This document shows positions 7,395-33,047 of a stretch of DNA of 43,905 bases, piece after piece (position 1 is the stretch's first letter; the number at the start of each line of letters is the position of its first letter). The DNA is from Synechococcales cyanobacterium PMM_0082 (lineage in GTDB: Bacteria > Cyanobacteriota > Cyanobacteriia > Pseudanabaenales > Pseudanabaenaceae): contig CASBQR010000174.1 in assembly GCA_949127865.1 (NCBI GenBank), positions 1-43,905 on the forward strand, written 5' to 3'. The translations under genes were made by a program, and so were the position numbers. Below the pieces are notes generated by a model. It was not told the origin of the DNA and did not search any database. It worked only from the letters and a program-made list of their open reading frames with translations.

Positions 7395-7987
7395 CTAACC
7401 TTATCGCCACTCAGAATAAAAATAGGGTTAACCGCAGCGAATATTTGACGGTTGCCCTTGGTTTCTAGGCGATTAACTGCTGACTGCACTATTTCTATAT
7501 TGCGAATATGAAGCTGAGCAAAACTTTCAGAAATTTTATATAGCCCCTCTAAAGTGCTAGCCGTGGCAATTATGCGTCCACCGATCGCTAAACGTTGCCA
7601 ACAATAGATCAAAATTTCTTGAATAGATCGTCCACCTTCTATTAAGATTCGATCTGGGGTATCTGATAATACCTCTAAACATTCTGGAGCACTGCCATTG
7701 ATAATTTCCACGTTATTGACTGAAAATTTTTGACAATTCAAGGCAATTAAACCCGCTACATCTTGATCCCGCTCGATCGCTATAATTTTACAAGTTGGAC
7801 ATAATAACCCAACTTCTACAGGAATCGTCCCCGTTCCCGCCCCAATATCCCAAAACACAGAGTGAGATCGCAACCGCAAATGGCTAATGAGTAATAATCT
7901 CACCTCACATTTACTCATAGGAATACCGGGCAGCCGTTCAAACATATCGTCGGGAATGCCGGGAGTAGCGTAAGACCAAATTGCCAT
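7391..7987 (-). CDS. cbiT: Cobalt-precorrin-6B C15-methyltransferase (decarboxylating)
   Basis: CbiT is a SAM-dependent enzyme of corrin ring synthesis that methylates C15 and decarboxylates the C12 acetate side chain. The 198 residues begin with YATPGIPDDMFERLPGIPMSKCEVR, the characteristic CbiT N-terminus, followed by the Rossmann motif FWDIGAGTGTIPVEVG (motif I) and IIAIERDQ (motif II). It is the stand-alone C-terminal half of the CobL/CbiET fusion. It is last of four closely spaced minus-strand genes (9112 to 7391), three bases after the DUF948-like gene, so co-transcription with the envelope/stress-like genes is likely although no functional link is known. Confidence 0.9.
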   Translation of the reverse strand: MAIWSYATPGIPDDMFERLPGIPMSKCEVRLLLISHLRLRSHSVFWDIGAGTGTIPVEVGLLCPTCKIIAIERDQDVAGLIALNCQKFSVNNVEIINGSAPECLEVLSDTPDRILIEGGRSIQEILIYCWQRLAIGGRIIATASTLEGLYKISESFAQLHIRNIEIVQSAVNRLETKGNRQIFAAVNPIFILSGDKVS

Positions 7988-24660: not shown

Positions 24661-25512
24661 CTATTGACTAATTTCTAAATCAATAGTTAAAGCCATTTGG
24701 TAAAGTTGGCGGCGGGGGATTTTTGTGATCTCAGCTAGTTTTCGACTTGCCTGCGATCGGGATATACCCTCTGCCATGATTGCTACTAGCTCTGATTTAA
24801 GCTGGGGTTCTGTCCACACTTTAGAATCACCCTTGGGTATTCCTGCCATGACTAGGGTAAATTCTCCCCTTGGCTCTTGATTTGTGTAGTGGGCGATCGC
24901 TTCTTTGAGATCTCCTCGCCAAAATTCTTCATGGAGTTTGGTTAATTCTCGCCCCAGCACCACCTGTCGATCTGCATTTAAGTATGCGCTCAAGTCTTGG
25001 AGAGTTTTCCGTAAACGATGGGGAGCTTCATACATAATGATCGTGCGTTGCTCAATTGCTAATTGTTCTAGTTGCGATCGGCGTTGGCTTGAATCCGTAG
25101 ATAAAAATCCTGCAAAGATAAAGCTATCGGTACTCAAACCTGAAGCCACTAGAGCAGTTGTACAGGCACTAACTCCTGGAATAGGGATGACATTAACTTG
25201 AGCGGAAATAGAGGCTTGAACTAATTCCAAACCTGGATCAGAAATACTAGGCATTCCCGCATCACTAACTAGGGCAATATTTTTCCCTTCTAGTAACAAA
25301 TCTAAAAGTTCAGGTATGCGGGCATAGCTATTATGGGTGTGATAACTGATTTGCGGAGTTTGAATCTCGAAGTGGTGCAGGAGTTTACCCGTATGGCGAG
25401 TATCCTCTGCGGCAATGAAGTCAACGGTTTGCAGGGTTTTAATTGCCCGCACCGTCATATCCTCAAGGTTGCCGATGGGAGTGCCAACTATGTAAAGTGT
25501 GCCTAACGCCAA
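24661..25512 (-). CDS. rsmI: 16S rRNA (cytidine1402-2'-O)-methyltransferase
   Basis: RsmI uses SAM to methylate the 2'-O of C1402 in the ribosomal P site. The 283 residues begin LYIVGTPIGNLEDMTVRAIKTL and contain AAEDTRHTGKLL, SDAGMPSISDPGLELV, IPGVSACTTALVASGL and YEAPHRLRKTL, all family signatures of this tetrapyrrole-methylase-fold enzyme. SDAGMPS has Met where Thr is usual. The start overlaps the end of the phasin-like gene by ten bases, so the two are co-transcribed. Confidence 0.94.
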   Translation of the reverse strand: MALGTLYIVGTPIGNLEDMTVRAIKTLQTVDFIAAEDTRHTGKLLHHFEIQTPQISYHTHNSYARIPELLDLLLEGKNIALVSDAGMPSISDPGLELVQASISAQVNVIPIPGVSACTTALVASGLSTDSFIFAGFLSTDSSQRRSQLEQLAIEQRTIIMYEAPHRLRKTLQDLSAYLNADRQVVLGRELTKLHEEFWRGDLKEAIAHYTNQEPRGEFTLVMAGIPKGDSKVWTEPQLKSELVAIMAEGISRSQASRKLAEITKIPRRQLYQMALTIDLEISQ

Positions 25513-25826
25513 TTTTTATTCTCCAATTCTCTGACTTGGCGCTCTAGGCGATCAATTCTGCCTCTAAGTTCGTCTACTTCATTTTGCCTAGGCACACCTA
25601 GGTCTTGGAGCGCATTACGAATTTGTTTTTGGATTAAGGTTTCAAAATTTACCTGTTCCGATTTAAAGCGATCGGCAAAGTCATTAATAAATTCTGATGC
25701 TTGATCTGAGTTGATTTTGCCATCTTTGACATATTCATCGGCGACTTCTTTGAGCTTTTCTACCATCAATGAAGTGGTGCCAACCCCAATCATTAATAAT
25801 TGTTTGAGTAAATTATTATTGTCCAT
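25503..25826 (-). CDS. Phasin-like coiled-coil protein
   Basis: A 107-residue protein starting MDNNNLLKQLLMIGVGTTSL at ATG 25826. Early hydrophobic residues (LLMIGVGTTSLMVEKL) are followed by a long charged helix and a C-terminal coiled coil (VDELRGRIDRLERQVRELENK). The pattern resembles small cyanobacterial phasin-family/PHA-granule-associated-like proteins, but the match is loose. The frame stays open to 25925, but that extra stretch lies in the end of an IS200/IS605-type element and reads like element sequence, so I reject the longer start. It overlaps rsmI by ten bases. Confidence 0.7.
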   Translation of the reverse strand: MDNNNLLKQLLMIGVGTTSLMVEKLKEVADEYVKDGKINSDQASEFINDFADRFKSEQVNFETLIQKQIRNALQDLGVPRQNEVDELRGRIDRLERQVRELENKNWR

Positions 25827-25899
25827 AGTTCTTGCAATATAAATTACTAATCTATTACATTTGACACTCCCACGTCTAAAGAGTATGGGATTCTTTAAG

Positions 25900-26220
25900 A
25901 GTCCAGAATCTGATTTCTCAGTCACTGTACCTTAAGGATGTAGTCAATACGCCCCTACCCATTCACGCTCACTGACTCTCGCCATGAGGCTTACGGCTAC
26001 TTTTTTTAATCTCGGAGCTTATCGTTCGCACTTTTCAACACTAGCCAGTTCGGTACACTCTATATCCTGTCTCTGCTTGCCTGTTCCTTAGTCTTTCCCA
26101 GCATGGCTGGTAGTTTCTTTCTGGCGGGAGTTTCACCGACCTAGGATATTTCAACGTGCAGTTGATACGCCTACTTGATTCAGCACAACTTAATTATAGA
26201 ATGGATTTGGTTAACTACTT
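25900..26220 (-). ncRNA. Candidate HEARO/omega-like structured RNA inside the IS element
   Basis: The roughly 300 bases between the element's end hairpins carry no reading frame but several perfect stems, read on the minus strand: TCAAC/GTTGA around five bases (26151-26165), CCAGC/GCTGG around three (26098-26110), GCC/GGC around TCAT (25981-25990), and a long-range ATATCCT/AGGATAT pair (26062-26068 with 26143-26149) that would close a multibranch domain. Segments such as GGTGAAACTCCCGCC match my memory of HEARO RNAs, the guide RNAs of IscB nucleases, which live in IS200/IS605 elements. No iscB gene follows. The family name is recollection and the ends are approximate. Confidence 0.5.
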
Positions 26221-26232
26221 ACCTACCTTAAC

Positions 26233-26272
26233 CCGCCTTATATCCCACGGCTAAAGCTAGTGGGTTTGGCGG
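26233..26272. repeat. Left-end nested hairpin of the IS200/IS605-type element
   Basis: An outer stem CCGCC (26233-26237) with GGCGG (26268-26272) encloses CCCAC (26244-26248) with GTGGG (26260-26264), and an inner GCT/AGC at the tip. This is the element end facing the DUF760 gene. Stretch 26286-26405 beyond it holds HIP1 sites and the presumed promoter of that gene. Confidence 0.6.
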
Positions 26273-26405
26273 CGATTTCTATAATCTTGACTTAGTTTAG
26301 GGCGATCGCCTCTTAGTTTGATCGGTTTTCTTCCCTAGATCAGGCGATCGCAATGTAAAAATATATAAATCCTTAATCAGAACTTTAACTTAGGAAAAAT
26401 CCAAA

Positions 26406-31337: not shown

Positions 31338-33047
31338 ATGAGCTATAGGATGAGTCGCTCTGCATACGCTGAAACCTATGGAATTACAGTGGGCGATCGC
31401 CTGCGGTTAGCTGATACCGAATTAATTATAGAAGTCGAAAAAGACTACACCACCTACGGTGAAGAAGTAAAGTTTGGTGGCGGTAAGGTGATTCGCGATG
31501 GTATGGGGCAATCCCCAATTACGAATGCTAATGGGGCGGTTGATGCGGTAATTACTAATGCTTTGATCTTAGATTGGTGGGGCATTGTCAAAGCAGATGT
31601 GGGGATTAAAGATGGTAAAATTTATAAAATTGGCAAAGCAGGCAATCCCTACGTTCAGGATAATGTGGATATTGTGATCGGACCTGGAACCGAAGCGATC
31701 GCTGGCGAAGGCATGATCCTAACTGCTGGTGGGATTGATGCTCATATTCATTTTATTTGTCCTCAGCAGATTGAAGTAGCGATCGCCTCTGGAATCACCA
31801 CAATGATTGGCGGTGGCACAGGCCCAGCCGCAGGAACTACTGCTACCACTTGCACTCCAGGGGTATGGAATATGTATAGAATGTTGCAAGCGGCTGATAG
31901 TTTTCCAATGAACTTAGGATTTTTGGGTAAGGGCAATTGCAGTCAGCCTGAGGGATTAGTAGAACAAGTAGAAGCGGGAGCGATCGGTTTAAAGCTCCAT
32001 GAAGACTGGGGAACTACGCCTTCGACTATAGATACTTGCCTGACTGTAGCTGATGAATATGACATTCAAGTGGCAATTCACACCGATACCTTAAATGAGT
32101 CAGGCTTTGTGGAAAATACGATCGCCGCATTTAAAAATCGAGTTATCCACAGCTATCACACCGAAGGAGCGGGCGGCGGTCATGCTCCCGACATTATTAA
32201 AATCTGTGGTGAGGTAAATGTGCTGCCTTCTTCTACCAACCCTACTCGTCCCTATACCGTTAATACCTTGGAAGAACACCTAGATATGTTAATGGTTTGT
32301 CACCACCTCGACCCTAGTATTCCTGAGGATGTAGCTTTCGCTGAATCTCGAATTCGCCGAGAAACCATCGCCGCCGAAGATATTCTTCATGATTTGGGAG
32401 CTTTTAGTATTATTTCCTCAGATTCGCAGGCAATGGGAAGAGTGGGAGAAGTGATTATGAGAACTTGGCAAACCGCCCATAAGATGAAAACCCAACGGGG
32501 CGAATTACCCCAAGATTCTAGCCGTAATGATAACTTTAGGGCAAAAAGATATATCGCTAAATACACTATTAATCCAGCCATTACCCATGGGATTTCTAAT
32601 TATGTCGGCTCGATTGAAGTGGGCAAGTTAGCCGATTTATGTTTATGGCGACCTGCTTTTTTTGGCGTGAAACCAGAAGTTGTAATTAAAGGTGGACTAA
32701 TTGCTTGGGCGCAAATGGGAGATGCCAATGCTAGTATCCCCACACCGCAGCCTGTATATATGCGTCCGATGTTTGGCAGTTTTGGCGGTGCTATGACTTC
32801 AACTTCTGTGACGTTTATGTCCCAAGTTGGTATAGAGCGAGGTGTTCCTAATCATTTAAACCTAAAAAAATCTGTGGTTCCTGTTAGTGGCATTCGTCAA
32901 TTGAGCAAACGGGACATGAAACTAAATGATACTTTACCGATTATGGAAGTTAATCCCGAAACCTACGAAGTCAGGGCTGATGGTGAACTCCTAACCTGCG
33001 AACCTGCCACAGTGCTACCTTTAGCACAGCGATATTTTTTATTCTAA
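31338..33047 (+). CDS. ureC: Urease subunit alpha
   Basis: The catalytic subunit of the nickel enzyme urease, hydrolysing urea to ammonia and carbon dioxide. The 569 residues match family length. Nickel ligands and catalytic residues are in [13 protein letters not shown], the lysine that becomes carbamylated is in [12 protein letters not shown], and the active-site flap histidine is in [26 protein letters not shown] lies about eight bases before the ATG. None of ureA, ureB or ureD-G is in the window; cyanobacterial urease genes are often scattered. No NtcA site of the form GTA-N8-TAC was found upstream. Confidence 0.96.

Follow-up and report, generated by a model that had tools for sequence, protein, structure and literature searches.

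A gene-less IS200/IS605-type element of cyanobacteria with a predicted free-standing TnpB-type omegaRNA

We describe a compact IS200/IS605-type element that contains no gene and whose only product would be a free-standing guide RNA of the TnpB type, an omegaRNA. We put the probability of this reading, a non-autonomous element with this RNA as its sole product, at roughly three in four. The element lies in a stretch of 43,905 nucleotides (hereafter the window), which is contig 174 of a 232-contig, 2.72-Mb cyanobacterial assembly. It is intergenic, placed between divergent genes: a phasin-like gene on the minus strand, which adjoins an RsmI-type methylase gene, and a DUF760 gene on the plus strand. 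Comparison of its copies reveals a multi-copy, class-wide family with a predicted RNA whose stems covary, including an omegaRNA-type pseudoknot formed from the very last bases. Most likely, as judged from sequence, TnpA and TnpB both act in trans, the one mobilising the element and the other using its RNA. The initial annotation, made from the letters of the window, had already read the locus as a gene-less IS200/IS605-type element carrying a guide-like RNA, and the ends, the copies and the covarying structure bear this out. The features are collected in Table 1.

Table 1. Features of the element, in positions of the window
Feature	Position	Strand	Evidence
Whole element, 420 bp, ORF-less, IS200/IS605-type (PATE/MITE-like)	25861-26280	minus	boundaries from copies C60 and C81 and from the left end beside tnpA, own genome; empty site in G001
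Tetranucleotide TTAT left of the element: presumed TnpA target (C_L), would-be guide TAM	26281-26284	minus	same place in 5/5 own-genome and 7/7 G166 sites
Left-end hairpin CCCACTAGCTTTAGCCGTGGG	26244-26264	minus	sequence; left end (LE) 85% identical to the LE beside both tnpA 3' ends (C203, C76)
-10 box TATAAT, presumed RNA promoter	26193-26198	minus	28/34 non-redundant copies
Conserved 5' RNA module P1-P3, covariance model R1	26017-26183	minus	142 bits in the window; 26/390 class genomes
P1: UGCA(C) 26160-26157 with (G)UGUA 26057-26054	26054-26160	minus	96.3% of cells paired; double-sided changes in 3/4 pairs
P2: AUAUCCU 26149-26143 with AGGAUAU 26068-26062	26062-26149	minus	double-sided changes in 7/7 pairs; 90.3% paired; top pair of the structure-blind ranking
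P3 hairpin GG(U)CGG..CCGCC	26123-26141	minus	88.2% paired; double-sided changes in 2/3 counted pairs
Variable hairpin CCAGC-CAU-GCUGG	26098-26110	minus	perfect in the window; in other copies a hairpin with unrelated sequence
P4 long hairpin, start of the 3' core	25960-25995	minus	outer three pairs 94.8% paired, all three with double-sided changes; inner part weak
P5 stem, loop strand UUGAC 25947-25943; equivalent of ISDra2 stem 1 and pseudoknot strand	25937-25953	minus	A5 pairing test; ISDra2 structure in PMC10097598
Right-end signal GAAT (25893-25890) and hairpin (CCCATACTCTTTAGACGTGGG, 25889-25869); equivalent of ISDra2 stem 4	25869-25893	minus	nearly all copies; 85.3% paired, double-sided changes in 4/5 pairs
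Terminal GUCAA: end of the right end (RE) and pseudoknot partner of 25947-25943; guide would begin at 25860	25861-25865	minus	98.2% of cells paired; terminal pair CG 28, AU 4, UA 2
Flanking DNA ATGTAATAGATTAGTAATTTATAT: expected guide if the RNA serves as omegaRNA	25837-25860	minus	inferred position, by analogy with TnpB omegaRNAs; flanks vary at every copy

The element is an insertion with IS605-type ends. In a genome of the same genus (G001) both flanks align at 81-82% identity, over 1152 and 1385 bp, and the aligned flanks enclose 464 bp in the window versus 73 bp in G001, which is thus an empty site; the RNA model R1, described below, finds no match in G001. Within the own genome, BLASTN detects two more compact copies (C60 and C81), so that a second copy with these ends exists, as the initial reading implied, and there are more in genomes beyond. 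The same search finds copies of the LE at two contig ends, adjoining tnpA 3' ends (C203 and C76; translation SDTIKKYIENQKIK*), and a copy of the RE beside a tnpB 3' end (C208; 74% identical), where the reading frame still encodes the TnpB tail NADCNGAANIIRKVATTLGL... The own genome encodes a Y1 transposase TnpA (three PF01797 matches). Lack of an ORF, ends held in common with autonomous copies and presence in multiple copies are the properties of a PATE or MITE.

The termini are those of the IS200/IS605 group, with subterminal hairpins, a GAAT guide and a TCAA cleavage site at the right end. The matching end hairpins described initially, with the shared core CCCACG-x-CTAAAG (read on the plus strand), are found at both ends, and the right end finishes on the minus strand with TCAA, as part of GTCAA. 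In nearly all copies the right end consists of GAAT, a hairpin and TCAA, which we take to be the arrangement of IS608. Insertion occurs 3' of a fixed tetranucleotide and without target duplication: TTAT precedes every left end in the own genome as well as each of seven near-identical copies that occupy seven sites in G166, and other genomes have TCAT (G294 and G199) or, for most G379 copies, TTAC. The right flanks are unlike each other from copy to copy. The element had been drawn from 25861 to 26285; its right end at 25861 stands, whereas the left end is shifted slightly, to 26280, by comparison with the own-genome copies, all of which begin TTAT/AGxAATxGCCG (the slash marks the boundary). 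As annotated, the element has no reading frame of its own, and the sole listed ORF that touches it (25503-25925) belongs to the neighbouring phasin-like gene. The first ~33 codons of that ORF enter the right end of the element (window 25830-25925) and are not conserved in the congener, the alignment of which begins at codon 33; the listed N-terminus is probably wrong.

The evidence for the stems of the predicted RNA is comparative and does not come from free-energy folding, which was uninformative for the single sequence (z = -0.26 and -0.03). For a structure-blind ranking of pairs, 35 non-redundant copies were aligned by sequence only (MAFFT) and scored with a background-corrected G statistic; pairs from P2, P1, P3, P4, the pseudoknot (235-298) and the RE hairpin were among the highest. 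An explicit structure was also scored on alignment A5, which holds 34 non-redundant sequences, from one of which the structure was partly drawn. In A5, 81.2% of cells pair, versus 69.6% after shuffling and 37-45% after sliding. Double-sided compensatory changes occur in 35 of the 43 base pairs and occupy 199 cells, versus 78 in the shuffled and 42-74 in the slid alignments; kinship among the sequences inflates such counts, and the structure-blind ranking is the fairer test. The initial annotation had staked its reading on compensatory changes in the stems across homologous loci, and these 35 pairs supply them. Likewise, the long-range seven-base stem that it singled out is P2, all seven pairs of which are compensated in the 34 homologues. 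P1, P2, the outer part of P4 and the pseudoknot are the best helices; the inner part of P4, P5 and P6 are less well paired (49-72%). The window copy itself forms 37 of the 43 pairs. Most copies, L063, L067, L069, L074 and L078 among them, have a second palindrome (e.g. GTGCGGCTTCAGCCGCA), placed after the left-end hairpin and ahead of the -10 box; it too has compensating changes between copies.

The RNA probably has its own promoter, because a -10 box stands at a fixed place before P1-P3. A match to at least five of its six positions falls within 24 nt at the module start in 28 of 34 copies, versus 10.6 in shuffled sequences and 2.8 in control windows, and the box is usually 7-10 nt upstream of the P1-P3 module. 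Many copies have a weak -35 box or none, and in most it is not clear; a promoter scan of the minus strand of the window found none above chance at the right place.

The last ~130-145 nt of the element form a core that is homologous to the 3' end of tnpB, the core of the window and that of C208 being 74% identical. At the protein level, the cores of compact elements can be aligned with TnpB C-termini (RGDLSAPVRLKLWS...) at up to 85% over 20 aa (tblastn, E 3e-6), and the core model R2 matches both compact and tnpB-bearing elements in the carrier genomes. Within this core the terminal GUCAA pairs with UUGAC in the P5 loop, with the RE hairpin in between, and the pairing covaries. Variants in an independent set follow the same rule: copies that end in GTATCAA carry TTGAT, and those that end in GTTCAA carry TTGAA. 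In the omegaRNA of ISDra2, the loop of stem 1 supplies the partners, -103A to -105G, of positions -5U to -3C beside the guide; stem 4 comes before the guide, and the 5' half is dispensable (PMC10097598).

The predicted RNA is thus like the TnpB omegaRNA, or reRNA, of ISDra2 (PMC10097598) in that its scaffold stops exactly at the TCAA of the RE, its terminal bases pair with the loop strand of an upstream stem, the RE hairpin stands just before the guide and the core has its homologue in a tnpB 3' end. It differs in that the element has no tnpB, and hence no overlap with a tnpB 3' end of its own, in its longer 5' part with the conserved P1-P3, and in that it is probably made from its own promoter, whereas a TnpB omegaRNA is processed from tnpB mRNA. 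On the strength of its predicted anatomy, the RNA is a stand-alone relative of the TnpB omegaRNA rather than a canonical cis omegaRNA. If it works as TnpB omegaRNAs do, its guide would be expected at the right end, in keeping with the earlier idea that the adjoining DNA gives the target. We propose that P1-P3 stands in for the part of the omegaRNA that is shared with the tnpB coding region in elements that have tnpB. None of the tnpB elements examined in the searched genomes contains P1-P3, and the R1 matches examined are compact elements. An origin of P1-P3 as degenerate tnpB coding sequence was not supported, as tblastn with 44 TnpB-like proteins reached essentially the 3' core only; a single weak and patchy match enters the P1-P3 module (L114, 27%, E 0.009).

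The family extends across the class. The relative in which a conserved middle was first noticed (L055) belongs to another family of the class, and the covariance model built on that middle (R1, ~165 nt, 165 positions) matches in 26 of 390 class genomes, among them G033, of the same family as the source genome. Copy numbers per genome reach 48 in G166, a genome of 2.66 Mb, followed by 22 in G379, 16 in G199, 13 in G294 and 10 in G163. A degenerate DNA pattern run against ~85,000 bacterial and archaeal species genomes gives 34 loci, all titled cyanobacterial, among them Planktothrix, Nostoc, Dolichospermum, Nodularia, Microcoleus, Pseudanabaena and others. As a check on carriage by phages, two pattern scans of viral contigs gave no match. 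In 59 of 67 loci the RE lies no more than ~210 nt from the module, which leaves no room for tnpB in such copies; the remainder are contig ends or altered ends. TnpA is encoded in 25 of the 26 carrier genomes and so is TnpB, which is common in cyanobacteria, so that its presence may be no enrichment; given this distribution, both proteins could act in trans. One genome that is 95% complete (G077:C311, L078) has the RNA element and TnpA and no match to PF07282 (TnpB). The suggestion that the guide had been domesticated is not indicated, as the family is mobile, with dozens of copies in G166, and the window copy is absent from the congener.

Other compact elements were also seen. A second, shorter type lacks P1-P2 (L172, L181 and L191 in G166, and G000:C59 about 7730-7924, L012); it has a covarying hairpin (GTCGCC/GGCGAC or CTACC/GGTAG) around CTTGGTGAAAAACCCA, beyond which the omegaRNA core and RE are the same. 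Further compact elements of about 200-560 bp (L036, L045 and L052, in G105 and G075) have similar ends and unrelated middles. Compact forms of IS605 in cyanobacteria thus seem diverse.

A question remains, could these elements be passive, PATE-like remnants? This is the main rival: the element would be an ends-only deletion derivative of a tnpB element, an ordinary PATE that TnpA moves in trans, and its RNA structure an idle leftover of decay. Such a product has a precedent in Halanaerobium, where a 271-nt ends-only IS605 element retains a complete RE along with the final 58 nt of tnpB (PMC7290912), and the resemblance of the core to TnpB C-termini at the protein level is what decay would leave. 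Like the PATE, our element is ORF-less, has the ends of a complete IS605 element and is presumably moved by TnpA in trans. However, the PATE is a single chance deletion, whereas our element is one of a family that spans the class, reaches 48 copies in a genome and has an RNA that is conserved and covaries. Against a leftover speak a P1-P3 module of ~165 nt that occurs in no tnpB element examined and yet is conserved across families and covaries, a pseudoknot beside the guide that is kept in 98% of cells, and a -10 box kept at a fixed place. We therefore consider decay unlikely.

Less probable still is that the RNA has ceased to guide a nuclease and serves as a regulator, antisense or as a TldR-like repressor guide, adopted by the element or the host. 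A promoter-like box of its own would suit a regulator, as would conservation of a module that known ISDra2 activity does not require, the 5' part of that omegaRNA being dispensable (PMC10097598). Yet the high copy number, the varying flanks and recent transposition suit a selfish element, and there is no conserved genomic context.

The initial annotation had taken the RNA for an orphan guide that may use enzymes encoded elsewhere. That part is supported, with transposase and nuclease genes present elsewhere; its choice of IscB as the nuclease, and with it the assignment to the HEARO RNAs, gives way to the anatomy of TnpB RNAs. Stand-alone copies of HEARO are known, and our element resembles them as a structured, orphan guide RNA in an IS200/IS605 setting. 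However, the search with the HEARO covariance model (RF02033) that had been put forward as a check gave no match in the region at the gathering or the relaxed threshold, none in 20 related loci, and none in the whole genome, a scan run without a positive control; moreover, the pseudoknot and guide junction lie at the right end, as in TnpB RNAs and opposite to the guide of HEARO, and the 3' core is homologous to tnpB 3' ends. We regard an orphan HEARO RNA (an IscB or IsrB omegaRNA) as very improbable. The same low standing goes to an IStron-like element, in which the RNA, as a self-splicing intron, would clear the element from transcripts: IStrons, of the IS605 type, join a ribozyme, a group I intron, to a tnpB-type right end, and our element likewise has an RNA domain within IS605-type ends, but it bears no intron signature, neither a group I or II core nor an Rfam intron match even at the relaxed threshold, and the window copy lies outside genes, in the gap between two divergent ones. 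More generally, no Rfam family, with HEARO, IMES and both intron groups included, matched the window element or three relatives at the relaxed threshold, or the 20 related loci at the gathering threshold. Elsewhere in the window, at 31496-31779, the Rfam model 5_ureB_sRNA, a Helicobacter antisense sRNA, matches with 94.8 bits antisense to the urease alpha gene, where it probably just recognises conserved coding sequence.

For a free-standing omegaRNA used in trans, the simplest course would be as follows. The RNA would be transcribed from its own promoter near 26193, and the transcript would pass the right end into flanking DNA, which would become the guide. A TnpB encoded elsewhere would bind this RNA, and a TnpA encoded elsewhere would excise the element and insert it at TTAT/TTAC-like sites. 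After excision, TnpB with the RNA may cut the resealed, empty donor site, and repair from a sister copy would then bring the element back. TnpB is thought to aid the persistence of transposons by cutting the empty site after excision; such TnpB-driven retention would give a gene-less element reason to keep an intact guide RNA.

PATE-like IS605 remnants (PMC7290912) and TnpB omegaRNAs are already known. What appears to be new is a class-wide, ORF-less family with a predicted stand-alone, covarying omegaRNA that is probably promoter-bearing and has a new 5' module. The family is not in Rfam 15, and the literature searched holds no ORF-less omegaRNA elements, although a prior description is possible; nearest in that literature are the PATE in Halanaerobium (PMC7290912) and MITEs in Anabaena sp. 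90. We lean, at odds only slightly better than even, towards the broader view that a class-wide family of 'guide-RNA-only' transposons exists in cyanobacteria. Its members would be omegaRNAs that drive their own transcription and carry a new structural module at the 5' side; with TnpA to move them and TnpB to protect them, both in trans, a single nuclease would serve dozens of gene-less elements, each with a guide derived from its flank.

Elements that have no gene and yet keep their guide RNA intact and covarying, together with its pseudoknot, would be natural evidence that the guide RNA alone is worth keeping, apart from the nuclease gene. With 48 copies in one 2.66-Mb genome, a single TnpB may have many guides at its disposal, much like a dispersed guide array. 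The elements are a source of natural omegaRNAs that are compact and have a 5' module still to be explored, and they allow the role of the RNA to be tested directly, with the RNA alone altered and TnpA and TnpB unchanged.
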